A stretch of 64,000 nt of DNA from Colwellia ponticola (lineage in GTDB: Bacteria; Pseudomonadota; Gammaproteobacteria; Enterobacterales; Alteromonadaceae): assembly GCF_005885605.1 (NCBI RefSeq), contig NZ_SZVP01000006.1:1-64000 (forward strand). Reading direction: 5' to 3'. The position numbers and the translations under genes are program-made. The notes under the pieces were generated by a model that searched no databases, was not told the origin of the DNA, and worked only from the letters and a program-made list of their open reading frames with translations. Positions 1,156 through 15,107 of the stretch are shown here, one piece after another (positions within the stretch are counted from its first letter, which is position 1; every line of letters begins with the position of its first letter).

Positions 1156-1362
1156 ATGAATATTGTTGGAAAGAACGTAAGAACAATTCGTGAGACTAAA
1201 GGTTGGACTCAAGAGCAGTTTGTGGCTAAGTGTAATCTTGCCGGTTGGCAAATTAGCAGAAGTACTCTAGCTAAAATTGAGGCTAATGTCAGGAGAGTAA
1301 CAGATATTGAAGTACAGAAATTGTCTGTAGCACTGAATGTGCTGGTTAATGAGTTGTTTTAA
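1156..1362 (+). CDS. XRE-family helix-turn-helix regulator
   Basis: This 68-residue protein consists almost entirely of one Cro/C1-type helix-turn-helix domain. The pattern runs from VGKNVRTIRETKGWTQEQF through the recognition helix region around ISRSTLAKIEANVRRVTD to LSVALNVLVNELF at the C-terminus. The size is usual for controller proteins of phage, toxin-antitoxin or restriction modules, where the whole protein is the DNA-binding dimer. Two palindromic operators at 1083-1100 and 1130-1145 lie directly upstream, between it and the divergent gene at 534-1049. The likely role is autoregulation plus control of that divergent pair. Whether it also controls the helicase operon that starts about 290 bp downstream cannot be told from the sequence. 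Confidence 0.85.
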   Translation: MNIVGKNVRTIRETKGWTQEQFVAKCNLAGWQISRSTLAKIEANVRRVTDIEVQKLSVALNVLVNELF

Positions 1363-1653: not shown

Positions 1654-4600
1654 ATGGATAATCACTTTGATGATATGTCATCTGAAAATGAAAGACACCA
1701 AGAGGAGAACTCGTCGAATTTATTTGATAATAATATAGCTCCTGAAACGAATAAAAAGATGGAAGGGGTTTTGTATTGGAGTAACGAATCTAACCGGAGT
1801 GAAAAGCGCTTAAAAGATTCATTAAAACGCTTATTTTTTAAATACCCCACGCTAAAAGAAAAGTATCAAAAACACAGTGATGTTCCAGAAGATCAACTAG
1901 ATAAATTTTTGAATGATTTTTTTATAGAGAATATTCCGCTACCCTATTTTGTAGCTAATTTATCAATAAGAGATGATGCAACTGAACGAATTAATCTCGC
2001 TATACGCATACCTAACCATGGTGAGTTTATTGAATATTTACCAATCACCAGTACTATCTGCATTAGAGGCTATTGGGGAGTGAATCAGAGAAATCCTGTG
2101 TTTATCCCCGAAGATATTTTTACTAGTTTTAATGATGAAAATGCTACTGCTTATGAGGTGGAAACGCTCACATCTGCTAGTTCAATACGCCCTGAGCCTC
2201 GCTGTACGAATAATATATTAACAAGGGAGCTGGCAGAATCACTACCAGCGATTTCAGTAAAGGCTGCTGAGAGGTTGGAAGCTTGGCAAGAGTTTTTGAC
2301 TTTTAAAAGGCAATTAGTCGATCGTAAAACGATTGGCCTGAGGTATTTGGAATGTTCGGTCACTCCGGATAATAACTTAGCGTTTCTTGTTGTAAGTGAA
2401 GATGAACAGTCAATTAATCGGGCGAGTAATTTATTTAAAAGAAAAAGTCTTGAGGCGTTCGAGTTGGGGATCTCCCAAAACAAGTGGCATTTCGAACTTG
2501 ATGCTAAGAAAAAGTCTAACCGTATCCCCCGCGGTGAAGAGCTTGGGCAGCTTAAAGGTAAGATTAATAAATTAGACGCCACTGCAATTAAGGAGAATAC
2601 TGCTCATATTAATTATTTGAATGAGAGCGGCATTAATGACCCTACTTTAGCTTATTTAGTCGTTGAACCATCTGAGGATTGGAAGAATAAAATTGATAAT
2701 GCACAGAGGCATGTTGAATTAATTAAAGCAGACTATAAAGCTGAAGAAGCACAGCTGCCTTCTATTACAGAGTCAGAGTTTGACCAAGTCGTCAAAGCAT
2801 TACTTAATGCTATTCCTGAGCAAGGTTTTATTTCGTTTCCCTCCGTAGGTGATCTTGCTCTAATCAAACGACATGAACAAACAGTGAGAAACCTTCGCCA
2901 GAATGAGAGTTGTTATTCCCCATACTTGTCGAGCTATTTGTTTGATATTACTCAAGCAAATACATCAAAAAATGATGCCAACATTGAATCTTGGTTTAAC
3001 GATCAATTAAACGACTCTCAGAAGCTCGCAGTCAATAAGATGATGTCTGCACCAGACTTATGTTTGGTGCAAGGCCCTCCAGGAACTGGTAAAACTACCG
3101 TTATCGCAGAAGCCATTCTTCAGCTGGCGCGTAAAGGTGAAACGATTTTACTTGCCAGCCAATCTCACGATGCCATCGATAATGCTTTAAGCTGTATTCA
3201 TAACCGTCCTGAATTAAGGGCGATCCGCCTTGCGCGTGGTAAAGGGAAGATCACCGATGAAGGTAAAGGTTTTGCAGAAGATAAAGCATTGGAACGCTAT
3301 TATTCAAGCCTAAGAACACATGTAGCAGAGCAGTGGATTGAGCCAAAAAAGAAGCGCGATAAAGAGTTCACGCAACTGAAATTATGGATTAATGAAGCTG
3401 AATATGTTGATTCTGATGTGAATTCTGCTCAAGAGAAGCACAAAGCCCTGCGTCAGGAAAGAAAATTAATTAAAGAGCGCCTAAGCAATGAGCAGCAAGC
3501 CTATAGAGGGGCTATCGCAAATTATGAAGCGTTGATTAAACGACAGGAGTCAACAAAAAACTCTTTAATGAACATTGAAGACCAAAAGTGGGAGTTTGTA
3601 CATGACTCATTTCTTCCAAATGTGAGTGAAAAATTGCTTCGAAAATTGCAAACGATGGCTGAACTTAACATTGAAGTTGATACTGCTTTTTTGAATTTTA
3701 ATCAACTTGATAATCAAAATTCATGTTTACTAGTGCTCAATGCGTTACTCGCTACTTGGTCTAAGGTTACGAGTCAGCTTCCAGCTATTCAAACTGACTT
3801 GTTACGACTTCGAGATGCTGGACGAGGTGCATTACAAAATAATTTGGTTAAGGAAAAGTTAGCATCACTGAAAAATCGTGAAATTGAGTTAGCTGAGCTG
3901 ATGGATGAAGATGATACTGAGGAGTTAGCTGGACAATGGCGCAAAGTCAGAAAACAGATTAAAACGCTAAAAAGCCAAGCTACAGGGTTAGATATTGCTA
4001 CTTACAATTGCTTTGATGATGGTAGAGATATCTGCAATGTCACCGATGCCTCTTACACTCACACATTATTAGCATCCCGTATTGATAATTTAGAGCTTCT
4101 TAAACAAGACATTAAAAAAGCCTTACACGATGTAATGGTTCAGTTAAAACAATGGTTAATTGAAAATAAAGATATTAAAGAGCCGTCTGATAAAGAATTA
4201 AAAGAAATAAATGCTTCGCTTGAGCAAATAGATCAAAAATTAGAGTCACAAAGCAACCGCCTTGAAACACTCCACTCAAGTGCTTCTAAATTAGTGTCTG
4301 ATCGCAGTGACGGGTTGAGCTGTAGCTTGAGAGGATGCTTAATAAAAGCCAAAAAAGAATATGAAGAACAAATGCACGTGGCTATGGAGGAAGATAAAAA
4401 ACAAGCACCACTGCAAAACTTCTTAACTGATTGGGCTGAAAATCTAGCAGGAGAAAATTCAGCGCAATATGACTGGGAGCATGTCAGTGAAACGTTTATT
4501 GAAAATTGTAATTTAGTGGCCATTTCGTGTAATGAAAGTGAGAGAACTCTTAGAGATGCAGGCATGGAAAGCTTTGATACCGTAATAATTGATGAAGTCT

Positions 4601-5640
4601 CTAAAGCAACACCTGTAGAGTTATTGTTACCTTTGATGCGAGCTCGCCGAGCAGTCTTGGTTGGCGACCATCGTCAATTGCCACCTGTTTTTCAAGAAAG
4701 CCAAGATGCGCAAGCCTTTACTGATAAAGTAGAGGAGTCTGAAGACGATGCAACAGAAACACTACTGACTAAAGACAATTTACAACGTTTCGAAAAGATG
4801 GTGACAGCATCACTTTTTAAAGAGCATTTTGAGAATGCAGATGAATCGATTAAAGAAAGACTAACGGAACAATACCGTATGCATCCGCAAATTATGAGTT
4901 TTGTAAATAATTTTTATGATGGGCAACTTATATGCGGAAATAAAGAAAAAGATCGATCGCACAATATTCTATTACAAAGCCATAATAATACACTTCTATC
5001 AGCGGATGACCATGTACTGTGGATTGACACTTCTCTCGATTTAAAGAGAAAACCTTTTAAAGAGAGTGAAGATAGAACCAATCGCTTAGAAGCGGCGCTC
5101 ATTGCTCAAACGCTCGTTGAGATAAACCAGCAATGTCTAAAGCAAGGTTTTGGTAATAGGCAAAAGAAAAAGCAAGACGTTGGGGTTGTCTCTTTCTATG
5201 CGGCACAATGTCGGGTTATTCGTGATGAAATTAAAAAAGCAAATAATGGCAAGGTTCAATTTAATGCAATCCATGTTGAGATTAACACCGTTATAAGGTA
5301 CCAAGGCAAAGAAAAGCCAATCATTCTTATGAGTTTAGTGCGTAACGATGGGGGACCAAAAGAGAAGCGTAGATCAGCTAAGGCTAACATTGCGCGATAT
5401 GAGTTTATTAATGTTGCTATGTCGCGAGCACAAAATTTACTGATCGTTTTTGGCGCGCGGAATATGCTGGAAACAAGAGACGTATGGCTCCCTAACATGG
5501 ATAAGCCAGGGAAACAGAAGAAGCAGGTTTATCGTCAAATTTTTGCTCAGTTAGATCGCGATGCTCGTATTTTTCATGCACAGGAAATGGCGGAACAATT
5601 TGCTCGGGACAAATCAGTAGGTAAAGGAGTACAAAGATGA
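1654..5640 (+). CDS. UPF1/DNA2-like superfamily 1 helicase with a long central coiled coil
   Basis: First gene of a five-gene operon. The frame is open from a TTG at 1627, but the ATG at 1654 has an AAGGA ribosome site 5 bp upstream and is chosen, giving 1328 residues. Superfamily 1 motifs are clear: Walker A GPPGTGKTT at about residue 475, Walker B VIIDEVSKAT at about 977, motif III VGDHRQLPP, motif IV TEQYRMHPQI, motif V near TVIRYQGKEKPIILMSL, and motif VI NVAMSRAQNLLIVFG. About 500 residues rich in Glu, Lys and Gln sit between motifs I and II and look coiled-coil. This layout resembles UPF1/DNA2-type helicases found in bacterial conflict systems. The N-terminal 450 residues are unassigned. 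The stop overlaps the next start (ATGA). It probably translocates on RNA or DNA; the substrate is unknown. Confidence 0.85.
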   Translation: MDNHFDDMSSENERHQEENSSNLFDNNIAPETNKKMEGVLYWSNESNRSEKRLKDSLKRLFFKYPTLKEKYQKHSDVPEDQLDKFLNDFFIENIPLPYFVANLSIRDDATERINLAIRIPNHGEFIEYLPITSTICIRGYWGVNQRNPVFIPEDIFTSFNDENATAYEVETLTSASSIRPEPRCTNNILTRELAESLPAISVKAAERLEAWQEFLTFKRQLVDRKTIGLRYLECSVTPDNNLAFLVVSEDEQSINRASNLFKRKSLEAFELGISQNKWHFELDAKKKSNRIPRGEELGQLKGKINKLDATAIKENTAHINYLNESGINDPTLAYLVVEPSEDWKNKIDNAQRHVELIKADYKAEEAQLPSITESEFDQVVKALLNAIPEQGFISFPSVGDLALIKRHEQTVRNLRQNESCYSPYLSSYLFDITQANTSKNDANIESWFNDQLNDSQKLAVNKMMSAPDLCLVQGPPGTGKTTVIAEAILQLARKGETILLASQSHDAIDNALSCIHNRPELRAIRLARGKGKITDEGKGFAEDKALERYYSSLRTHVAEQWIEPKKKRDKEFTQLKLWINEAEYVDSDVNSAQEKHKALRQERKLIKERLSNEQQAYRGAIANYEALIKRQESTKNSLMNIEDQKWEFVHDSFLPNVSEKLLRKLQTMAELNIEVDTAFLNFNQLDNQNSCLLVLNALLATWSKVTSQLPAIQTDLLRLRDAGRGALQNNLVKEKLASLKNREIELAELMDEDDTEELAGQWRKVRKQIKTLKSQATGLDIATYNCFDDGRDICNVTDASYTHTLLASRIDNLELLKQDIKKALHDVMVQLKQWLIENKDIKEPSDKELKEINASLEQIDQKLESQSNRLETLHSSASKLVSDRSDGLSCSLRGCLIKAKKEYEEQMHVAMEEDKKQAPLQNFLTDWAENLAGENSAQYDWEHVSETFIENCNLVAISCNESERTLRDAGMESFDTVIIDEVSKATPVELLLPLMRARRAVLVGDHRQLPPVFQESQDAQAFTDKVEESEDDATETLLTKDNLQRFEKMVTASLFKEHFENADESIKERLTEQYRMHPQIMSFVNNFYDGQLICGNKEKDRSHNILLQSHNNTLLSADDHVLWIDTSLDLKRKPFKESEDRTNRLEAALIAQTLVEINQQCLKQGFGNRQKKKQDVGVVSFYAAQCRVIRDEIKKANNGKVQFNAIHVEINTVIRYQGKEKPIILMSLVRNDGGPKEKRRSAKANIARYEFINVAMSRAQNLLIVFGARNMLETRDVWLPNMDKPGKQKKQVYRQIFAQLDRDARIFHAQEMAEQFARDKSVGKGVQR

Positions 5641-7757
5641 TTTACGAACATAATGTTAAAATAGATATTCCTGTTTTTAAAATAGATTCTAAGGTGGCCT
5701 ACCAAACTGTACGTCGTCCTACCGTATTTGAGAAAAGCATATTACAGTTATTTGCTAAGCACTCAGAACAACTAGGTGCTTATAGCCTTGAAAATATAGC
5801 GAAGCAGTTGAAAGTTAATTCTGTCTTTTTTGTAGAAGCTCTTAGGTATTTAAGTGACTTCAAGGCTGTCGAATTTTTAGATACCCACACAATATCAGAC
5901 GGCGCAGCATTGAAGTGTAATGACATTTTAATCACCACAGACGGGCGTAACTTTCTCGCTGAAAATGCGTTGCCGAGTAAAAGTAAAAATACGACGGAAA
6001 CGACGTATTACCACCCCCTCTCAGGAGCGTTAATTGGTAAAAATCAAATAAAGATAGATTCATATCCGGATGTAAAGTGTCTTCCTAGCGAGGGGATGCG
6101 AGTCACGCTTTCTGTTGTAGAGCCGCTTGTCGATGACAAAATATATCTAGACTGGCAAAAAAAACCGAATGAGAGAGTTAAAAGTATAGAGTCTGTATTT
6201 AGCGGGGAGCTGCGTGATCGAAAAACCTTTAAAATAGATATCAATCACAATGGGAATATGACAATCCTTTCTAATGACAATGATTTCTCAGGGTGGCTAG
6301 AAGCAGCTGAAGCGGAGTATCTTTGGCAGTTTTTGGTCTCACCTATCTTTTCTACAAATTATAATAATCAGCCTTTTAAAATTGATTGGGCACAGGTACA
6401 TGCTGTAGCAGCCGTAGATAAAGTAAACGATCTGATTGTTAAACAAAAACCCCACTACCTATTTTCTTTGGTAGATAGGATTAAGACGGACGTAGCGACT
6501 GTTATTTTAGCGCCATCACAAGAAATATCACTGGTTGATAAAATATTAACGATCAACGAGTGTCCACTCGAGTTTGATGGGGGCGTAGAAGCGTTAATTA
6601 TAAGTGAGTCTAAAGAAGGGAGCGAATTAAAAACGGGACTCTCGGAAGTTTCATATCGTGGACAACCTCGGGAAATAGATCTTGCTCTACTTGTTCAGTC
6701 AGATAAAAAAGTAAATGAATTTGAGCAGTTTTTACTTACAAATGACGATATTAATATTGTCATTTTCTCTGCTGTCATCGACCCCGAACAGGCCGTTGAG
6801 CGCTTGCCTAGCTCATATATGCCTAAAGTGGTCGAATATTATGAAAAAATGAAGAAGCTTGTCCATAATTTACCCCCTCATAGCTTCAAAAGTAAAGTTA
6901 AGCTTTTAAGGAGTAAAGAGGAGGTGACTAATTATGCTCAGTTGTTTAATGATCAAGAAATACCGTTAGATAACTTAACGCCTGAGTGTGCAATTTCGCT
7001 GATTGACCGTGCTATTATAAAATCTGATCCCGTTTCTAGTTTGTCTATTTCTAAGACGTTAGCAGAATTAGCCGATATTTATGTGTCACTTAAAAATAAA
7101 ACAGGCCAGGACTTATTAAGCTTAAACAACTATGATCTGTTAAAGCTTAATGTTGCACATTATAAATTCTTACATAACCTTTGCGATCACGTTAATGTGC
7201 TTCATGGGATACTTTGCTCCTCTATCTTCAATAACTCTAATTTAGCAATACTTAAAGATAAGGTTGCAAAAGCGCTGGCACACTTTGCTGCGCACTATAA
7301 AGACCCACAAAAAATCAATAAACGTATTATCGTCATTGACACCAATTGCCTCATGCATAACCTACCTCTCTTAGATAAAATAAAGCCTTCAGATCAGCTT
7401 ATAATGCCTGTAACTGTGCTACGCGAGCTTGAAGGATTAAAAGAAGATAAGAATGAAGGTGGGTGGACTGATAAGGCTAAGCGTGCCAGAGCAGCAATTA
7501 ATCGACTAAATGAGTGGAAAAATTATGAGCCATCTCATATCGAGCTTGTAGAAAAAATGGATAGAGCTTCATTAGACTCGCCAGATATGCATATTCTCTC
7601 TGTGGCTGTTTATTATAGATTGTGTAGTTCGTTACTACTTACCGATGATAAAAATTTAAGAAATATGGCCAATGCTGAAGGAATAGTAAATAAGTCGACA
7701 CAGGAATACCTTGCTAGCTCGTCAAATAAAAAGTCGAAGAAAAGGAACTGGAAATGA
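5637..7757 (+). CDS. PIN-domain nuclease with an N-terminal winged-helix-like region
   Basis: The 706-residue protein ends in a PIN domain (about residues 563-690). Four acidic residues of the nuclease centre can be seen: D568 in VIDTNCL, E597 in VLRELEGLK, D650 in SPDMHILS, and the Asp pair in LLTDDKNLR. PIN domains are metal-dependent ribonucleases of toxins and RNA-decay proteins. The N-terminal region (about 25-110) reads like a winged helix-turn-helix (FEKSILQLFAKHSEQ, YSLENIAKQL, ITTDGRNFL). The middle 400 residues are unassigned. The start overlaps the helicase stop by four bases (ATGA), so translation is coupled and the two proteins are likely made in fixed ratio. The pairing with a UPF1-like helicase suggests RNA cleavage plus unwinding, which is an inference. 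Confidence 0.8.
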   Translation: MIYEHNVKIDIPVFKIDSKVAYQTVRRPTVFEKSILQLFAKHSEQLGAYSLENIAKQLKVNSVFFVEALRYLSDFKAVEFLDTHTISDGAALKCNDILITTDGRNFLAENALPSKSKNTTETTYYHPLSGALIGKNQIKIDSYPDVKCLPSEGMRVTLSVVEPLVDDKIYLDWQKKPNERVKSIESVFSGELRDRKTFKIDINHNGNMTILSNDNDFSGWLEAAEAEYLWQFLVSPIFSTNYNNQPFKIDWAQVHAVAAVDKVNDLIVKQKPHYLFSLVDRIKTDVATVILAPSQEISLVDKILTINECPLEFDGGVEALIISESKEGSELKTGLSEVSYRGQPREIDLALLVQSDKKVNEFEQFLLTNDDINIVIFSAVIDPEQAVERLPSSYMPKVVEYYEKMKKLVHNLPPHSFKSKVKLLRSKEEVTNYAQLFNDQEIPLDNLTPECAISLIDRAIIKSDPVSSLSISKTLAELADIYVSLKNKTGQDLLSLNNYDLLKLNVAHYKFLHNLCDHVNVLHGILCSSIFNNSNLAILKDKVAKALAHFAAHYKDPQKINKRIIVIDTNCLMHNLPLLDKIKPSDQLIMPVTVLRELEGLKEDKNEGGWTDKAKRARAAINRLNEWKNYEPSHIELVEKMDRASLDSPDMHILSVAVYYRLCSSLLLTDDKNLRNMANAEGIVNKSTQEYLASSSNKKSKKRNWK

Positions 7758-8890
7758 GTCAGATACATGATGCGCGCTACAGATTAGAGCGTGAACAACG
7801 CCAGAGAGTTGCCGAGGAGCGGGTGCGCAATACAACAAATTCATTTATTGAACGTTACCACAATGAATTAGCTAGTATACAACAGCAAGGTTTAGCTGAG
7901 TATGTACAAGAACGTTATGACAGCTGTTTATCTCAGCTTGGGCAAATAGAAGCTGGTCTTGCTAGCGATCCGTTTAGGGCTAGAGAGCGATCTAAATCAC
8001 TAGGCAATGAAATTTATGCTCTACGCAATGTTGCGCGGCGTATTAAAGTGCAAGTTGAAGAAGCACAATACCAACAACATAGAGATGAGCTTGAAGTTAG
8101 AGCTAATGCAAAGAAAGAAAGAAAAGTACAAATTAGTAGTGCTTGGAATGAAGAGCTACGTAATTGGTCTGATAAATTATCACTGAACTTAATGCTTAAA
8201 GAAATTAAAGAACTTGAGCAACAGGTATTTTCAGAGCAGTCTTTTGGAAAAACTCAAGATTTGTTAGTCCAGTTTCAGAAGCTTAAAAAGAAAGGTCTAG
8301 AAAAAGCAGTGAATCATAGGGCGCTAATAGAAAAGGAAACACAACACATAACTAATCGTGACGTTGCCCAAGCGATTGTTGAAATTGTTTCACCAAGCCT
8401 TCCTGGTGAAGAATCTAAAAAATTTACCGCGCAAGCGGATAAAATTCTTTCAGTTAATCCTCAAGATGCAAATGAGCAGCTTAAAGAAATAGATCAACTA
8501 TCAGATCGAGCTGATGAAATATTCGAAAATGAAGCTATAAGAAAAGAAACCGTAAAAGCCATTTACAACACGTTGAAAATCACTGGTTTCACGGTGCAAA
8601 AACCTAAGATGGTCGAAACTAAAGAAGGAGTTCGAGAGGTTATTATTGCCGCTAGTAGGCCCGCAGGAAATAGAGCAAAATTTAAAATACGCCTAGATGG
8701 TAGTTGCACCTATGAATTTGATAATTATAAAGGGCAAACCTGTAAGAAGGATATTGAACAAGTGCTTCCTAAGCTCAATGAAGTATATGGGGTTGATTTG
8801 TCTGACTCACGTGTCGTGTGGAGCAACCCTGACGATGAGGATGCTCAAATGAAGCCCATTCCATCACAAACAATGAATTCAAAAGGATAG
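7754..8890 (+). CDS. Coiled-coil protein of the helicase-PIN-AAA operon
   Basis: The 378-residue protein is dominated by charged helices (about residues 1-250, rich in Glu, Gln, Arg and Lys) predicted to form long coiled coils. A smaller alpha/beta-looking C-terminal domain (about 255-365) has the stretch KFKIRLDGSCTYEFDNYKGQTCKKDIEQVLPKL. No known family is recognised. It is translationally coupled to the PIN gene (ATGA overlap) and lies 4 bp before the AAA+ gene. A structural or adaptor role linking the nuclease and helicase to the AAA+ ATPase is the simplest reading. No catalytic motif is seen. Confidence 0.65.
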   Translation: MSQIHDARYRLEREQRQRVAEERVRNTTNSFIERYHNELASIQQQGLAEYVQERYDSCLSQLGQIEAGLASDPFRARERSKSLGNEIYALRNVARRIKVQVEEAQYQQHRDELEVRANAKKERKVQISSAWNEELRNWSDKLSLNLMLKEIKELEQQVFSEQSFGKTQDLLVQFQKLKKKGLEKAVNHRALIEKETQHITNRDVAQAIVEIVSPSLPGEESKKFTAQADKILSVNPQDANEQLKEIDQLSDRADEIFENEAIRKETVKAIYNTLKITGFTVQKPKMVETKEGVREVIIAASRPAGNRAKFKIRLDGSCTYEFDNYKGQTCKKDIEQVLPKLNEVYGVDLSDSRVVWSNPDDEDAQMKPIPSQTMNSKG

Positions 8891-8894
8891 GGAT

Positions 8895-10745
8895 ATGAAT
8901 ATGAATAAACCCCATATGTCAGAGTGGCTCGGAGATCTTTCTCGTCAGGCTAAGTTACGCCGAGGTATTGTTATCAGCGGTAATGTTAATAATAGTGTAT
9001 TCAACCAAGAGGGGACGCAGAAACCTTTCAAGCATGTGTTAAACAATACATTTGAAAAGCTTGGTTTTAAGCATGTTATTCATTATTCAAGGGTGGGAGG
9101 AATTTCAGGGATATCACAAGAAAATTGGAGTGAGTTACAGTTATCATCAGCCCCACCATCTGAATTAATAGAGGGAGATGATTATGATTTTGATGATGAG
9201 ACTCCGGATGAAAAACAACAAGCAGATGCTGGGCAAACAGAACTAACGCCGCAGGACTTTTTTGCTGTAGCACAGCGTGTGATGCTAAATGCTAACTTGC
9301 CAAAAGTAGCGTTTATTATAGATTGGTCTAATTTACTATTTGGGCAAGTAAATGCACTGTCAGAGCAAGAGCGTGGCTGGTTATCCCAACTATTACAAAA
9401 CCTTCGTGACTCAGCAGATGAGATGTCCCACACAGAAATAGATAAAGTGCAGAGTTTAATGGTCTTTGTCTGTGAAGGCGCGAACAAATTGCCCCCGCAA
9501 CTTACAGTAGGCAATCCTCAGTTTGGTGAAGTGGTTGTTCCTTTGCCAAACCGCGCTGAACGCCAACAAGCAATACTGGGTCTTTCAACTACTTTCAACC
9601 TTGAAGAACGCCCTATCATTGGTTCTCGATTATTGGAAGATTTTGTTGATTTGACAGACTCTTTAACGCTTCGTGAGATTAACCAACTCGCTCGTCTCTC
9701 CCGCCAACAGCAAGAAGCCTTATCGTTAGATGCATTAGTATCATTATATCGTTACGGGAAAAAAGAATCGCCTTGGGAGCAATTGAACTACGATAAATTG
9801 AAAGATGTTGAGAGTACGCTACAACAGCGAGTTAAAGGGCAAGACGAAGCGATTAAATTAGTGAGGAAAGTGTTAGTAAGAGCATTTACTGGTTTATCCG
9901 GATTACAGCATTCGGCAAAATCTAGAATGCCCAAAGGAGCGCTGTTTTTTGTTGGACCCACAGGTGTCGGCAAAACTGAATTGGCAAAATCCCTTGCGAG
10001 CTTTTTATTTGGCGATGAAGATGCCTGTATGCGATTTGATATGTCTGAATTTAATCATGAGCATGCCGATCAGCGACTAGTAGGCGCGCCCCCTGGGTAT
10101 GTCGGTTATGAGGAAGGTGGCCAACTGACGAATGCTGTGAAAAAAAGACCGTTCTCACTGCTATTGTTTGATGAAATTGAAAAAGCACACCCACGAATTT
10201 TAGATAAGTTTCTGCAAATTCTGGAAGATGGCCGGCTTACTGATGGTAAGGGAGAGACCGTTAATTTTTCTGACACATTTATCGTGTTCACTTCAAATAT
10301 CGGTGCCAGTGAAATCAAACCTGGCGAGCAAGCGCTCGAACAGTTCAAAATCCACGTCACAAAGCATTTTGTTCAAGAGTTAAAACGCCCTGAACTATTA
10401 GGTCGAATTGGTGAAGCAAATATAGTGCCTTTTAATTTTATGACGGATTCAGACTTTCTGGTTGCAATCGCGAAGGCAAAATTAGAACCACTAAAAATAC
10501 GCTTAAAAGAAAAATGGGGGATATCTGATCTCATTTTTGATAATGAAGATAAAGCCCTGACTACGATTGTCTCGCAAGTTGATAAAACTGCTGGGGGGCG
10601 AGGGGTTTTAAATGCTATGGTTTTTGCTCTTTTTGACCCATTAGCAGAGTTTTTATTTGAAAGTCTATCGGACTCTACTAGTTTTAATGGTCGCCCAATC
10701 AGAGTTGTTCAAGCAGGTAAAAATTTTGATTTTGAGGTGGATTAA
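8895..10745 (+). CDS. ClpB/ClpA-like AAA+ ATPase with a degenerate first ring
   Basis: The 616-residue protein carries one active Clp-type AAA+ module: Walker A GPTGVGKT (about 354-361), the pore loop GYVGYEEGG (about 401-409), Walker B LLLFDEIEKAH (about 423-432), sensor-1 region FIVFTSNIG, and an arginine-finger region KRPELLGRIGEANIVPF. The first 290 residues look like a second AAA fold without Walker A: VAFIIDWSNLL sits where Walker B would be and SLMVFVCEG where sensor 1 would be. ClpB and ClpA normally have two active rings. The M-domain and the ClpP-binding IGF loop were not seen, so a disaggregase or remodelling role rather than a protease partner is inferred. The stop overlaps the next start (TAATG). 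Confidence 0.82.
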   Translation: MNMNKPHMSEWLGDLSRQAKLRRGIVISGNVNNSVFNQEGTQKPFKHVLNNTFEKLGFKHVIHYSRVGGISGISQENWSELQLSSAPPSELIEGDDYDFDDETPDEKQQADAGQTELTPQDFFAVAQRVMLNANLPKVAFIIDWSNLLFGQVNALSEQERGWLSQLLQNLRDSADEMSHTEIDKVQSLMVFVCEGANKLPPQLTVGNPQFGEVVVPLPNRAERQQAILGLSTTFNLEERPIIGSRLLEDFVDLTDSLTLREINQLARLSRQQQEALSLDALVSLYRYGKKESPWEQLNYDKLKDVESTLQQRVKGQDEAIKLVRKVLVRAFTGLSGLQHSAKSRMPKGALFFVGPTGVGKTELAKSLASFLFGDEDACMRFDMSEFNHEHADQRLVGAPPGYVGYEEGGQLTNAVKKRPFSLLLFDEIEKAHPRILDKFLQILEDGRLTDGKGETVNFSDTFIVFTSNIGASEIKPGEQALEQFKIHVTKHFVQELKRPELLGRIGEANIVPFNFMTDSDFLVAIAKAKLEPLKIRLKEKWGISDLIFDNEDKALTTIVSQVDKTAGGRGVLNAMVFALFDPLAEFLFESLSDSTSFNGRPIRVVQAGKNFDFEVD

Positions 10746-11326
10746 TGGCGTGGTTAAACTTAGCTGCTGTAGTAAACTCTACAGAGGTAGAAGGACCTGG
10801 CACTCGTACTGCTATTTGGGTGCAAGGCTGCTTGAAGCGATGTCCATCTTGTTGTAATCCTGATTTTTTAAAAGTTGAACCAGCGAATGTGGTCGATATT
10901 AATCAACTGAAAAAGCAAATTGAGTTAAACAAAAGTCATTTTGGTATCGAAGGAATAACCTTGTTAGGAGGGGAGCCGGTACTGCAAGCTCCAGGTCTAT
11001 CGGAATTAGCTCAGTTTGCACACAGTATTGGCTTATCTGTCATGTTATTCACAGGGTATAAGCTTGAGGAATTAAAAGAGAATAAATTTAATGGTATAGA
11101 TAAGCTCTTAAGGCATGTCGATATTGTGGTCGATGGGGAGTTTGAGTCTGATATTATTGAGCAAAACCGTAATTGGGTAGGCTCTAAAAATCAAAATTTT
11201 CATTATTTGAGCGAAAGATATGATGAGGCTATTGAGCCTATTAAAGAAGGCGTTATCACTGAGTGGCGCATAGACCCTGAAGGAGTTGTTTCTGCTAATG
11301 GTATACCATTTATTGTAAAAGTTTAA
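10745..11326 (+). CDS. NrdG-like 4Fe-4S radical SAM protein ending the operon
   Basis: This 193-residue protein begins like a radical SAM activating enzyme. GPGTRTAIWVQGC precedes the cluster motif C29-x3-C33-x2-C36 (CLKRCPSC), and the GGEPVLQ stretch matches the SAM-binding GGE motif. It resembles NrdG and other small activases that put a radical on a glycyl-radical enzyme, but no such enzyme is encoded nearby. The start overlaps the AAA+ stop by one base (TAATG), which makes it part of the same translationally coupled operon. Modification of one of the operon proteins, or of a nucleotide or protein target, is possible. The substrate is unknown. Confidence 0.8.
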   Translation: MAWLNLAAVVNSTEVEGPGTRTAIWVQGCLKRCPSCCNPDFLKVEPANVVDINQLKKQIELNKSHFGIEGITLLGGEPVLQAPGLSELAQFAHSIGLSVMLFTGYKLEELKENKFNGIDKLLRHVDIVVDGEFESDIIEQNRNWVGSKNQNFHYLSERYDEAIEPIKEGVITEWRIDPEGVVSANGIPFIVKV

Positions 11327-11474: not shown

Positions 11475-12554
11475 TTAATCTTCACGGATATAAAAAGTAG
11501 TGTTCTCACTAGCTGCAATGATTATAGAACTTTTCGTATACCTTGCTCTAAGCTGCAAAGTACGCAAGTGTGGTGACGTAACTAAAGTCATATTCAGAAT
11601 TGGGTTAGCACCTAAGTTTACTTCCTGAAGCTTATCACAGTGACCTAACTCTAAAGTCTTATTACTAATTTGGTTTCTATACAAAGATATACGCTCAATA
11701 GATTTTGGAAACCTAATATTAGATATATCAGTGATATGGTTTTTGTAGGCTAATAATGATTTTAAGTTAGGTAGCGAATTAATTGAACTGGGAAGTTCTG
11801 ACAAAGAGCATGCTGATATATTAAGACTTGAAAGTGATTTTGCTGTATGTAATTCATATAAATCTAGGTGTGGGTTTCCCCGTAAATCAAGTTTCTCTAA
11901 CTGAGTGAAATATGAAAAATCTGGCAAAAATGACAGTGCGTTAAAACATGCATTTATTTTTTTTAAATACCGTAGCTGAGAAACAATACGCCACAGTTCT
12001 AACATCTGTTTATTAGATAAATTGTTAGTAAGCCCTCTAGGATATAGTTGATTATCAGTCAGATCAATTGTCACAATTTTATCATTTTTGACTCTCACAT
12101 AAACAGGAAAATTAAGCAAGTTACATACATGGAGATAAGCTTCCCTCTCACCACTACATAGAAAGTTAATATCATTTATCAGGGATATATCTTTTTTTTC
12201 ATCAGGTATATTTTGTGGTAAATGAAAAGCATGCCATTTCATGTTTTGATATAAGTTAGGACCTATGTCTGCACCGTTTACCCAGCCCACATTTATCTGC
12301 TTCACTTCAGAGTTAGTTAGTATCAGTTTGATGGCTTCATATGAGGCGGGGCTTTCATCTGTAGGTGGGGGAAGCGCCATGAAGTCGCCAACAATTAATA
12401 AGTGTAGAGGTCTTTTTTCACTTTGCAGGTGCTCCTCGAGCCCATCAGGCAAGCGTTCATCAGAACATATTGAAAAAATTATTAAATCTTGTAAGTGACC
12501 TTCAAACTGTAACGCCACTTTTTGGCATGTGCCGCCACCAAAGATGTTATGCAA
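11475..12554 (-). CDS. Leucine-rich-repeat protein, last gene of the RiPP-like cluster
   Basis: The 359-residue protein starts at a TTG preceded by a good GGAGGT site 6 bp upstream, and the start overlaps the end of the nucleotidyltransferase gene. The C-terminal half (about residues 165-345) holds leucine-rich repeats, for example LEKLDLRGNPHL, LSSLNISACSLSELP, LKSLLAYKNHITDI, IERISLYRNQISN and LQEVNLGANP. The N-terminal 160 residues are a separate alpha/beta-looking domain with no assigned family (LHLLIVGDFMALPPPTDES). There is no signal peptide, so it is probably cytoplasmic. LRR domains bind proteins. Here it may hold the precursor peptide, recognise a target or act in self-protection; all three are guesses from context. 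Confidence 0.75.
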   Translation of the reverse strand: MHNIFGGGTCQKVALQFEGHLQDLIIFSICSDERLPDGLEEHLQSEKRPLHLLIVGDFMALPPPTDESPASYEAIKLILTNSEVKQINVGWVNGADIGPNLYQNMKWHAFHLPQNIPDEKKDISLINDINFLCSGEREAYLHVCNLLNFPVYVRVKNDKIVTIDLTDNQLYPRGLTNNLSNKQMLELWRIVSQLRYLKKINACFNALSFLPDFSYFTQLEKLDLRGNPHLDLYELHTAKSLSSLNISACSLSELPSSINSLPNLKSLLAYKNHITDISNIRFPKSIERISLYRNQISNKTLELGHCDKLQEVNLGANPILNMTLVTSPHLRTLQLRARYTKSSIIIAASENTTFYIRED

Positions 12555-13254
12555 GTTCTACCTCCTGTTTAATTTCATTAAGTACGATAGAGTAAGATAT
12601 TAATAACTCATCAGTTAATAAAGGGAGCGTAAAACTGTGAAGAATAAGCGCTACATGCCTTATTATCTTAGGGTACCTTTTATTTAAAACGTCGGCGCAA
12701 CCCTGAGGAGAGCGCGTATAAGAACCCTCTTTTAATCTTAATAGGCCCGCAATGCGTAATATTGCCTTTGATAGGTGGGGGACACGTTTATTTTGAATTT
12801 TTTTATTTGAGGTTTGGATGACTGAATTCAACTTTGACTCAGCTTCAAGTAGGGTAAAAAGTATAATATCGCGCTGCTTATCGATAAGCAGCGCGGTGGA
12901 GACCGATAAGTCTTTTCCATATAACAACTTACCTGTTTTTGTAACTAATAAGGTATTAAATAATAATTCAGAGCTTTCAACACTACAGTTGATAACTTTA
13001 ATATCAAGGTGTGGAGTTAAAGGAGAGGCTTCATTTGCATAGCTTGATATCTCAGCTGATATTGATTTTATCTTATTTATTTCGCCATGAGCGAACAATA
13101 AAAAATCAATATCAATAGGCTTACCTAAATTAGACTCCATGGGCAGTAATGAAGAGCCTCTAATATACAGAGAAACATTCCTTGAGCTAGAGCGCCAAAG
13201 CTTATTAATAAATGGGGTTAACTCTGTTTTCGATAAATCAAAAAAACTAATCAT
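12547..13254 (-). CDS. Nucleotidyltransferase-fold protein of the RiPP-like cluster
   Basis: The 235-residue protein shows the DNA polymerase-beta-like nucleotidyltransferase pattern: G33-S34 in IRGSSLL, then D48 and D50 in PIDIDFLL, and a third acidic residue, D84, in PHLDIKVI. This matches the GS...DxD...D signature of enzymes that transfer a nucleotide to RNA, protein or small molecules. The C-terminal part is helical. The start overlaps the end of the JmjC gene by 8 bp, and the end overlaps the LRR gene by 8 bp, so all are translated together. It could adenylylate the peptide, a target protein or a tRNA, or act as an antitoxin-like enzyme. The sequence does not decide. Confidence 0.7.
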   Translation of the reverse strand: MISFFDLSKTELTPFINKLWRSSSRNVSLYIRGSSLLPMESNLGKPIDIDFLLFAHGEINKIKSISAEISSYANEASPLTPHLDIKVINCSVESSELLFNTLLVTKTGKLLYGKDLSVSTALLIDKQRDIILFTLLEAESKLNSVIQTSNKKIQNKRVPHLSKAILRIAGLLRLKEGSYTRSPQGCADVLNKRYPKIIRHVALILHSFTLPLLTDELLISYSIVLNEIKQEVELA

Positions 13255-14086
13255 CGTTTACTGATGAAAGCAAAATATCGCAAATTATTTTAATATCATT
13301 TTTGCTTAATTCTTTGAAAGTTAAGCTATCCTCAGTAACAGAAAAAGGCTGGTCGGATCTAAGCTCTGGGTGGCGAATAGTTGCTCTATCAACTAAATCT
13401 GAAATAGAGTGAAAGCATCGCGGTGTATGTATCCCAATGGCTATATGAATAGATTGTTTCTCAGTCTTTACTGAGTGTGTTCGCCCAGGAGGTAGATATA
13501 ATATTTCGTTTTCACTAAGCGTTAACTTACGTGGCGATAACTCTTCTGAATCGTTGAGAATTGTGACAGCCTTATGTGGATATAGCTGAGACTGTTCCGC
13601 ACCAAGAGACCATTCTTTTTGCCCGTAAAGTTGAACAGCAAATATATGATGAGGATCGAAATGAATAGGTATCCCGTCGCTGGGTCCAAATGAGAAATAC
13701 CCGTTAAGAGTGATCCTAGATGAAAAAAGCGTCGAAAGTAAGTTATCCCAAAGTTTGAACTCTGGTAAAATTGAAGCTAGGTTTTCCACTTTGACAGTGT
13801 TTGGTTTACAAGCTAGGTAAGCTACTTTTTTTGGATCTATCGTTTCATCTAAACCGTGTTCACTCGATTTTGTATATAAAATAGGGCTTAATGCTCCCCC
13901 TCCACTCAATACTCTAATTTGAGGATATTTCAGTCTAGGTTGTTCTAATATTTTAGTTAATAAATTAGAAGGCGTTTTTATTTGCAAGGCTGAAGGGATA
14001 TTTGCTATATGCAAAAAATCTTTTCCCCAGTAATTTTGAAAGAAGTCAATAGTACTTTCTTGAAGGAGAAACTCTTTAAATTTCAT
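13247..14086 (-). CDS. JmjC/cupin-type Fe(II) 2-oxoglutarate oxygenase (peptide-hydroxylase-like)
   Basis: The 279-residue protein has the double-stranded beta-helix oxygenase core. H142 and D144 in PIHFDPHH, with H204 in PGRTHSV, form the Fe(II)-binding HxD...H triad, and the stretch IFAVQLYGQKEWSL is typical of cupin_4/JmjC proteins. Members of this superfamily hydroxylate amino-acid side chains of ribosomal and other proteins. Homologues sit in peptide-modification operons. The gene overlaps the radical SAM gene upstream by 11 bp and the nucleotidyltransferase gene downstream by 8 bp. The likely role is hydroxylation of the 56-residue precursor candidate, but hydroxylation of a host target cannot be excluded. 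Confidence 0.8.
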   Translation of the reverse strand: MKFKEFLLQESTIDFFQNYWGKDFLHIANIPSALQIKTPSNLLTKILEQPRLKYPQIRVLSGGGALSPILYTKSSEHGLDETIDPKKVAYLACKPNTVKVENLASILPEFKLWDNLLSTLFSSRITLNGYFSFGPSDGIPIHFDPHHIFAVQLYGQKEWSLGAEQSQLYPHKAVTILNDSEELSPRKLTLSENEILYLPPGRTHSVKTEKQSIHIAIGIHTPRCFHSISDLVDRATIRHPELRSDQPFSVTEDSLTFKELSKNDIKIICDILLSSVNDD

Positions 14087-15107
14087 AGTGTATAATACTT
14101 TTTAATGCATTTGAGCACCTAGGATCTCCCAAGTTAGGGAACCTGGCTCTACTGGAAGCGCCAGGACAACCACCATGACATAACTCCCAAGCTGGGCATG
14201 TGTGGCAAGTCGCTTCTAATTTAGGTTTTATTGGCAAGGTACTTAATCCATTTAGGATCTCATCCGTAGTGTTTATTTTAAAGTCGCCAGTAATATTTTC
14301 TTCCATACAAGCACACGGGTATACAGTACCATTAGGGTTTATGTACAGTTTAGATCTACCTGTGCCACAATTTTGTGCCAGCAAGCTTGAGTTTTTAGAT
14401 TCTTTAGATGTGTTGGCTGAGTTGTAGATAGCAGTTTCGGAAAACATAGGTGCAATTCTTAAGCGCCGAGAATTTGTTGATTCGTATTTTATTTTCGAAA
14501 CAAATTTGTTCCATTCTGGAGTTATAACATCATCACCATCATCAGCCCTACCAGATCCAACAACACGTTTTACGTTCCAGTATAAAAAGTTTATTTGTGA
14601 TAAAGCATGGTCAAGTTTATTGAAAGAATGAAGGTTATGTCGTGTTACTGTAGAGGCTATCGTAACATTAATACCTAAATCAAACAGTTTATTAATATTA
14701 ATAAGAGTTTTCTTAAAAGTACCTTCTCCTCTAATACCATTGTGAGTTTTTTCATCACCATCTAAAGAGATTTGAATAGAGACATTTTCAAAGTCAGCAA
14801 CTCTTTTGAGTTGACTAAACCTTAAACCGTTCGTATTAACGACTACTTTTCTAAAGCTTTTAGCACTTTTTTCTACAATTTCATAGAATGAAGGGTGGAG
14901 TGTCGGCTCTCCCCCGCTAATTAGTATGACAGCTTCTTTTCTAATTAAAGATAGTTGAGAAATAATTTGAAAGGCTAGATCTATATCTATCATCTCAGTA
15001 AAAGAAGGGTTTGAAGAGCGGATACAGTGACTGCAAGAAAGGTTACATTTCCGAGTTAATAGAAGATATGTTTGCTCAAGCTGAAACCTTCCTTGATGGT
15101 TATTCAA
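14076..15107 (-). CDS. Radical SAM/SPASM peptide maturase
   Basis: The 343-residue protein carries the radical SAM cluster motif CNLSCSHC (CX3CX2C) near residue 20, the GGEP motif at ILISGGEPTL, and a C-terminal SPASM-type region with clustered cysteines (NCGTG, YPCACMEE, TCHTCPAWELCHGGCPG and a final DPRC). SPASM proteins bind extra iron-sulfur clusters, and many of them crosslink or epimerise ribosomal peptides. The start is a TTG at 15107 with an AAGGA site 6 bp upstream. The nearest ATG runs into a stop after four codons. It lies 107 bp downstream of the 56-codon precursor candidate, and a perfect palindrome lies between them. Which bond it makes is not known. Confidence 0.85.
   Translation of the reverse strand: MNNHQGRFQLEQTYLLLTRKCNLSCSHCIRSSNPSFTEMIDIDLAFQIISQLSLIRKEAVILISGGEPTLHPSFYEIVEKSAKSFRKVVVNTNGLRFSQLKRVADFENVSIQISLDGDEKTHNGIRGEGTFKKTLININKLFDLGINVTIASTVTRHNLHSFNKLDHALSQINFLYWNVKRVVGSGRADDGDDVITPEWNKFVSKIKYESTNSRRLRIAPMFSETAIYNSANTSKESKNSSLLAQNCGTGRSKLYINPNGTVYPCACMEENITGDFKINTTDEILNGLSTLPIKPKLEATCHTCPAWELCHGGCPGASSRARFPNLGDPRCSNALKSIIHYEI

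Follow-up and report, generated by a model that had tools for sequence, protein, structure and literature searches.

The closest described relatives of the locus analysed here are the CoCoNuT systems, in which, according to PMC11090510, the helicase CnuH is followed downstream by a winged helix-turn-helix (wHTH) nuclease, CnuE, and the predicted target is RNA. CoCoNuTs of types II and III (CnuH-CnuE, McrB/McrC, TerY-P) resemble, in their UPF1-like helicase and the large insert that follows its Walker A, a five-gene operon that we describe from Colwellia ponticola (contig NZ_SZVP01000006.1, positions 1 to 64,000; this whole stretch of 64,000 nucleotides is called the window). All five genes lie on the forward strand. 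Gene 1 (1654–5640) encodes a superfamily 1 (SF1) helicase of the UPF1/DNA2 group and starts with ATG, a TTG at 1627 being likewise open in frame; gene 2 (5637–7757) encodes a wHTH-PIN protein, a predicted endoribonuclease of CnuE-like plan; gene 3 (7754–8890) a long helical, coiled-coil protein with a C-terminal alpha/beta domain; gene 4 (8895–10745) an AAA+ protein with a ClpB-like D2 domain; and gene 5 (10745–11326) a radical S-adenosylmethionine (SAM) protein resembling NrdG and the PFL activase. The genes overlap or nearly touch (ATGA, ATGA, a 4-bp gap and TAATG), just as an earlier sequence-only reading of the window had described when it took them to be one unit. We interpret the operon as a mobile RNA-cleaving anti-invader system with two arms, gated by an AAA+/radical-SAM regulator, and give this reading a probability of roughly 0.6.

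How closely does the operon follow the CoCoNuT plan? Gene 1 combines AAA_11 and AAA_12 domains with an insert of about 300 residues after Walker A, as in CnuH, and gene 2 places a wHTH and a nuclease downstream of the helicase, as in CnuE, with PIN here in place of HEPN; the likeness is one of plan. Coiled coils are common to both, and extended type III-A operons carry a CDC48-like AAA+ protein in which only the second ATPase domain is intact, as may be the case in gene 4 (PMC11090510). In contrast, no McrB-like protein that could stand for CnuB (an McrB-type GTPase with a coiled coil) is encoded among the five genes, CnuC/DUF2357 has no Pfam match in these and six neighbouring open reading frames (ORFs), and McrB GTPase, McrC/DUF2357 and TerY-P are all missing among the window genes scanned. 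The main text of PMC11090510 contains neither "radical" nor "ClpB", nor "PIN" as a word. What is new is the AAA+/radical-SAM regulator; the effector arm follows a plan already known. The sequence-only reading had regarded the set as novel: literature searches (which leave aside supplementary tables, preprints and most subscription journals) found no description of the whole set, and passages of PMC12839542, PMC10853773, PMC4284462, PMC13092281, PMC8649781 and PMC7159879 gave no match, but genes 1 and 2 have the layout of the published CnuH/CnuE pair. Matches of PADLOC and NCBIfam profiles are to single genes and either partial or below cut-off, in agreement with its remark that it knew of no named defence system with this set.

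When 72,556 plasmid records were searched at the protein level, the five-gene cassette turned up on plasmids of Photobacterium, Acinetobacter, Polaromonas, Moellerella (six cassette records, one of them read) and Leisingera. In addition, a five-sequence gene 3 alignment was run against one genome for each of 84,980 species, using a pattern scan that misses divergent copies, and returned 23 loci. All five profiles match in 20 of these; the others are two short contigs with genes 2–5 (L012 and L020) and a locus with genes 3–5 and a helicase (L034). With the five plasmid loci and the window, the full set is present at 26 loci in about 23 genera, and the co-occurrence in unrelated genera that the earlier reading had named as supporting evidence is borne out. 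The 26 loci are from Gamma-, Beta-, Alpha- and Epsilonproteobacteria and from Bacillota, besides one on a metagenome-assembled genome (MAG) contig labelled Lentisphaerae; MAG contigs may be misbinned, and the title of L023 flags contamination. Gene order passed an automatic test in 24 of the 26, the exceptions being L028, where an ORF is too long, and L027, where genes are fused or truncated. The pairwise distances of the five genes correlated at 0.963–0.993 over 23 loci, which shows correlated divergence; L013, L026 and L027 were left out because of split genes. Thus, the five genes are one conserved unit, beyond what chance would produce.

Some copies depart from the standard form. A viral contig (L011) keeps the five-gene layout, yet its gene 2 fails the gene 2 profile; at 24–2654, serine-recombinase-like ORFs and a 179-aa protein of HTH-like appearance precede this copy, and a viral scan with its radical SAM protein returned its own contig alone. 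The Pseudoalteromonas copy (L013, 2640–7884) has its helicase gene split, with about 1.2 kb between the two parts. The helicase is also fragmented in Helicobacter suis and H. cynogastricus (L026 and L027), where gene 4 is either split or largely lost and the PIN domain appears degenerate; PMC11090510 describes comparable fragmentation of CoCoNuT genes in Helicobacter. A single-protein search, too insensitive for judging distribution, gave one further match (L002), which we judged spurious (E 6e-4, 49 residues).

The operon is accessory and mobile. At E ≤ 1e-150, the window's own genome was the sole one among 41 relatives with gene 4, which none of 24 other genomes of the genus has, and the gene 3 profile matched 1 of 398 genomes of a phylum sample. 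Synteny shared with three congeners stops at about 20.5 kb. GGT (21190) and its preceding gene are conserved there, but the other 14 tested proteins of window 1–20.5 kb had no match at 1e-10 in the 16–17 kb beyond this point in the congeners. The window begins at the contig end. The operon could instead serve housekeeping RNA or protein quality control and contain a stray NrdG, as the UPF1-like helicase, the SMG6-like PIN domain and the Hsp100 motor all have quality-control relatives. This explanation is contradicted by the accessory distribution: gene 4 is absent from all 24 other congeners and gene 3 from 397 of the 398 phylum-sample genomes, 5 of the 26 five-gene loci are on plasmids, and the host genome has no NrdD or glycyl-radical enzyme match. 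We consider it very improbable. A core-genome position, which the sequence-only reading had held to speak against a conflict system, is likewise at odds with these counts and with the plasmid copies.

The flanks of the operon support a defence or mobile setting. The Acinetobacter copy has brxL and DarT within 7 kb, the Moellerella copy ArdA and a type I S subunit within 4 kb, the Photobacterium copy an HsdR N-terminal protein nearby and the Leisingera copy plasmid replication genes. When 109 flanking proteins were compared with PADLOC at 1e-15, 63 models were matched, several of them covering one protein family, and 23 of 25 listed models were matched by a single protein; BrxL, type I R and S subunits, DrmD, JukA, PDC candidates and prokaryotic viperin (pVip) are included. 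As a control, 35 core genes of the window matched one defence family (a 2-oxoglutarate, 2OG, protein). Pfam recognised integrases, transposases and TraI_2 among the 109 flanking proteins, and TnsA-like domains in two. Known defence genes are thus often close, both at the plasmid loci and among the flanking proteins, a setting that the earlier reading had suggested looking for. Its Tn7-like island found no such backing: no Tn7-type gene was noted among the listed ORFs, those at 16–64 kb lying outside the Pfam scan.

The effector arm consists of genes 1 and 2. Gene 1 contains the motifs GPPGTGKT, VIIDEVS, GDHRQLPP and VAMSRA; its insert separates Walker A (region 451–509) from motif II, and the best AAA_11 stretch is 827–1013. 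Pfam returned AAA_12 (1e-37) and AAA_11 (4e-36) and nothing beyond helicase/P-loop families. For gene 2, Pfam returned PIN_4 (1.2e-19), and an AlphaFold2 (AF2) model (pLDDT 88, pTM 0.59) predicts a wHTH region at residues ~1–126 and a middle domain, followed by a PIN domain at the C-terminus, located by PIN_4 and the model at residues 565–685 (~7329–7691). When this domain was compared with solved structures, human SMG6 was closest by profile (5.6e-9), and SMG6 and yeast Nmd4 made up the top eight Foldseek rows (best 3.7e-6). Both are PIN proteins of UPF1-dependent RNA decay, and gene 2 is a probable RNA-cutting enzyme. As in eukaryotic nonsense-mediated decay (UPF1 with SMG6/Nmd4), an SF1 helicase thus stands beside a PIN domain nearest SMG6/Nmd4; unlike that pathway, the bacterial operon shows no UPF2/UPF3 or ribosome link, and gene 1 is slightly nearer DNA2 and SMUBP-2 than UPF1.

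Two listed systems come close to gene 1. The helicase region matches MkoA profiles of Mokosh (2e-99, PADLOC), a system that we take to combine an MkoA kinase/NERD region with an MkoB/PLD partner. However, gene 1 lacks the kinase or NERD domain seen in a two-gene plasmid relative (L036), and gene 2 matches MkoB weakly (E 0.0058, N-terminus only), has no PLD domain and aligns to the L036 partner with an hhalign probability of 1.4%; these differences rule out Mokosh membership. The C-terminal part of gene 1 also matches the PLuB helicase-like protein NF040671 (4e-52), but its 176.8 bits against a cut-off of 999 rule out this assignment, and one search on the name PLuB found no use of it in the papers listed. 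PIN-domain effectors accompanied by SF1 helicase modules are described in PMC7159879, and the PIN systems of the DefensePredictor study (PMC13092281) are other than the present one.

The regulator arm consists of genes 3, 4 and 5. The second half of gene 4 (~9786–10742) is a ClpB/ClpC-like, Hsp100-type D2 with Walker A and B motifs and a GYVG pore loop; Walker A and GYVG are invariant across six sequences, the degraded L027 copy lacking Walker A. AAA_2 is the best Pfam family (2e-50, 171 bits), with AAA_5 at 40 bits. Walker A is missing from the first half, which hhalign aligns weakly to the final part of a classical AAA domain (E 0.004, probability 9%); this half is possibly a degenerate AAA domain. 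Gene 4 scores 266 bits against 1232 for the ClpB disaggregase, the match being to D2 alone and not to two active AAA domains. Dodola, which pairs DolA with DolB, had been named as a comparison by the sequence-only reading together with viperin, and both likenesses are partial and go no further. Gene 4 is an AAA_2-type ATPase like DolB, but the match is partial (5.8e-19) and ruled out on score, with no DolA match among the five genes; gene 5 shares the radical SAM fold with pVip (2.9e-7), but its 27 bits against a cut-off of 180 rule out a viperin.

Gene 5 matches Fer4_12 (1e-31) and Radical_SAM (5e-7), has no SPASM domain, and contains CX3CX2C followed by CN (~10829–10855) as well as GGEP. The pattern GC-x3-C-x2-CCN is kept in 30 of 30 loci (L003–L007, L011–L034 and the window); the more distant proteins L008–L010 all lack the extra cysteine. 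What is its substrate? Against the NrdG equivalog, gene 5 reaches 100.8 bits with a cut-off of 126.1. A profile search of the host genome gave no Gly_radical match, NrdD was not found there, and at E ≤ 1e-3 NrdD was absent in 8 of 11 other host genomes; above the family cut-off, it was present in 2 of 12 host genomes tested and missing from 10. Because neither Gly_radical nor NrdD is detectable in the host, gene 5 is probably no ordinary NrdG, and this absence together with the sub-cut-off score rules out a stray one. Gene 5 probably acts on a substrate other than NrdD.

Gene 3, which matched no Pfam family at E 0.1, is a candidate for this role. Its C-terminal domain (~residues 260–360) is modelled with moderate confidence (AF2 pLDDT 81, pTM 0.43) as four strands and a helix, and contains both motifs that are invariant in a 24-sequence alignment, Y-x-G-x-x-C and W-x-N-P-D (Y325, G327, C330, W356, N358, P359 and D360). 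Alternatively, and still compatible with a gated RNA-cleaving system, the [4Fe-4S]/SAM site of gene 5 could sense oxygen, redox state or SAM level and switch the AAA+ motor, with no protein modified. The lack of a glycyl-radical substrate enzyme in the genome, the 10 of 12 genomes without NrdD over the family cut-off and the missing SPASM domain fit a sensor, whereas the conservation of CX3CX2C and GGEP in the alignments and the invariant Gly/Cys motif of gene 3, a potential target, argue for chemistry on a protein; we see the sensor as a possible but less favoured role.

The AAA+/radical-SAM pair also occurs outside the cassette. Among 16 plasmid records in which an AAA+ protein covers at least 80% of gene 4, ten are five-gene cassette records. 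On five others (Rhizobium C104, R. leguminosarum, 11515TR, CB3171 and Caballeronia) a radical SAM gene lies directly downstream of the AAA+ gene (short in C104), and after the pair comes a protein of 1,824–2,138 aa that matches the helicase profile weakly. The only giant scanned with Pfam (L055) contains STK, DUF4011, SF1 helicase and MTES_1575 restriction endonuclease (REase) domains. On a Geminocystis plasmid the radical SAM gene is ~9 kb from the AAA+ gene, and in Aristaeella, with AAA+ coverage below 80%, both lie amid genes for kinases, a phosphatase and proteins with DUF4011 or FHA domains. In a planctomycete MAG (L034/L072), genes 3–5 lie upstream of a vWA protein and a second one known by its DSSGS motif alone; further genes encode PP2C and kinase proteins, a UPF1-like helicase, a weak-wHTH protein, an 810-aa protein with Walker A and no Pfam family, a DUF2357 protein (22.9 against a cut-off of 23.3 in L072) and a Card1-like CARF nuclease. 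By its predicted domains, this is a CoCoNuT-like operon with genes 3–5 attached.

Looser relatives vary the AAA component. Plasmid units of Paenibacillus and Paenarthrobacter join an AAA+ protein, an NrdG-like radical SAM protein and a small DUF2997 protein with a Gly/Cys motif, DUF1257 being recognised in Paenibacillus only. However, their AAA is classical and not ClpB-type, the stretches read contain no helicase or PIN, and homology of DUF2997 to gene 3 is weakly supported. On a Treponema plasmid (L058, 8938–11093) an NrdG-like radical SAM gene adjoins a classical AAA gene inside a contractile-injection-type cluster with VgrG/baseplate genes. A relative of gene 1 lies on a Nostoc plasmid (L037, 8140–14888), between pglX and pglZ of a BREX cluster, together with DarT-like and ADP-ribosylglycohydrolase genes. 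By contrast, in Vibrio campbellii (L059) the radical SAM gene is directly downstream of a 706-aa ORF, which we assume to be NrdD, the position expected of a true NrdG.

What is the mechanism of the operon? From these comparisons we infer a defence function, RNA as the target, complex formation, a threading hexamer, the radical-SAM substrate and the following order of events. The gene 1 helicase would load onto RNA that is foreign or aberrant and would use the gene 2 wHTH to position the SMG6-like PIN nuclease, which cuts RNA; the cleaved RNA could be invader transcripts or, after triggering, RNA in general, leading to abortive infection. Gene 4 would form a hexameric Hsp100-type motor with an inactive first half, an active second half and a substrate-threading pore loop, and gene 3 would be an elongated adaptor, probably linking this motor to the gene 1 insert. 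Through its [4Fe-4S]/SAM radical chemistry, gene 5 would act on one of its protein partners, most probably at the conserved C-terminal domain of gene 3, and so license or arm the complex, which the gene 4 motor would then remodel to release or load the nuclease. If true, an AAA+ motor with a radical SAM enzyme would be a new regulatory principle in bacterial immunity, the operon would contain a bacterial helicase-nuclease pair of UPF1 and SMG6 type, and an NrdG-like protein in a host without a detectable glycyl-radical enzyme would be explained.

A more far-reaching view, which we offer tentatively, is that the Hsp100-type AAA+/NrdG-like pair may be a general control device of conflict systems. 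It would be plugged into different helicase-nuclease effectors (PIN, possibly HEPN, the kinase-helicase-REase giants and CoCoNuT-like operons) and perhaps, in a variant with another AAA, into contractile injection systems; a radical or radical-derived mark on the Y-x-G-x-x-C domain of gene 3 would license immunity, and the effector arm would be a bacterial analogue of UPF1-SMG6. If the two-arm reading holds, a full-length AAA+ gene adjoining an NrdG-like radical SAM gene would also be a marker pair for finding more systems.

Several observations weigh against the gated, RNA-cleaving anti-invader system. In the regulator arm, the gene 3 C-terminus has no good PDB fold match (best E 0.02, with RnlA and spermine synthase among the weak matches), its likeness to DUF2997 is at the level of the motif with a weak hhalign score (probability 5%), a glycyl-radical motif is not demonstrated in it, and hhalign gave no meaningful alignment of the gene 4 first half to its own D2. 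In the effector arm, PIN_4 is a broad family and the rank of SMG6 may reflect a scarcity of solved PIN_4 structures. Gene 2 of the viral contig has no PIN domain: its N-terminus is similar to gene 2 (hhalign 2e-7, probability 94%), and its C-terminus carries an R-x4-H motif, from which alone HEPN is a possibility, Pfam and PDB searches returning no HEPN match. In L034 the protein that partners the helicase has a weak wHTH match (Pfam 0.012, hhalign probability 21%) and no recognised nuclease. The flank comparison is small, draws on different genomes, involves one protein for nearly every listed model and is no test of statistical enrichment, and its pVip matches include a side-module radical SAM protein (L012:4388) that is not a proven viperin.

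The target itself may be different. Among solved structures gene 1 is nearest to DNA2 (6.6e-26), followed by SMUBP-2 and UPF1, which makes DNA a possible substrate: gene 1 could unwind or track invading DNA like DNA2, while the PIN domain cuts a flap or single-stranded DNA. Type I restriction-modification and BREX parts among the neighbours agree with such a DNA-targeting helicase-nuclease system, as does the MTES_1575 REase domain in the rhizobial relative with the AAA+/radical-SAM pair, a family whose specificity we take to be for DNA. Set against this, the solved structures nearest the PIN domain are mostly RNA-decay proteins, and in CoCoNuTs a helicase combined with a wHTH-nuclease is predicted to act on RNA (PMC11090510); we regard a DNA target as unlikely.

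The genes are also broken in both Helicobacter loci, a decay that costly toxins can undergo. PIN RNases are common toxins, and the operon is located on plasmids and islands. It could on these grounds be a plasmid- or island-maintenance unit akin to toxin-antitoxin pairs, in which genes 3–5 restrain the PIN RNase and no specific antiviral role exists. Its ~9.7 kb, two motor ATPases and fixed five-gene order would be unusual for such a unit, the conserved set has no small antitoxin-like gene, and related modules occur in CoCoNuT-like and BREX settings; we hold this alternative to be quite unlikely.

Upstream of the operon, a 68-aa XRE/HTH_3 protein (1156–1362, forward strand, HTH_3 E=2.5e-9) is a possible local regulator. 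The adjoining XRE module of the sequence-only reading is thus real but local: phmmer found no relative upstream of the helicase on the same strand at 26 other loci (within 2.5 kb, less in short loci; an unrelated HTH would be missed), and a conserved sixth part is unsupported. Directly upstream of this gene are two palindromes (1083–1100 and 1130–1145) with the common core GCTCCGATA, possible operators. Promoter-like sites in the operon region show no excess (20 found, 28.5 expected), and terminator-like sites in the region no clear one (10 found, 7.8 expected). By the contig end, at 27–83, are three GTGATCAAAG-type repeats, two exact and one with a mismatch, possibly a transposon end; the count for the whole window, 8, was reached in 6 of 100 shuffles.

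Downstream of the operon, on the reverse strand, is a side module whose membership of the system is uncertain (11475–15107). It comprises a leucine-rich repeat (LRR) protein (11475–12554), a JmjC_2/cupin protein (13247–14086) and a radical SAM-SPASM protein (14076–15107), and a 235-aa ORF product without assignment (12547–13254). At 1e-50, the window's own genome was the sole one of 369 in the class where this radical SAM protein was found. By BLAST grouping, its family lies beside the operon at seven loci (the window, L012, L013, L016 in part, L018, L022 and L031) and JmjC at five, with LRR proteins likewise present at several loci; a regular expression for second radical SAM proteins detected 6 of 30 loci, fewer than the grouping. 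A distinct family with CX3CX2C near the N-terminus is present in L017, L019, L020, L023 and L029, with PHP-domain and further shared relatives adjacent in three. The side modules vary as if exchanged between loci.

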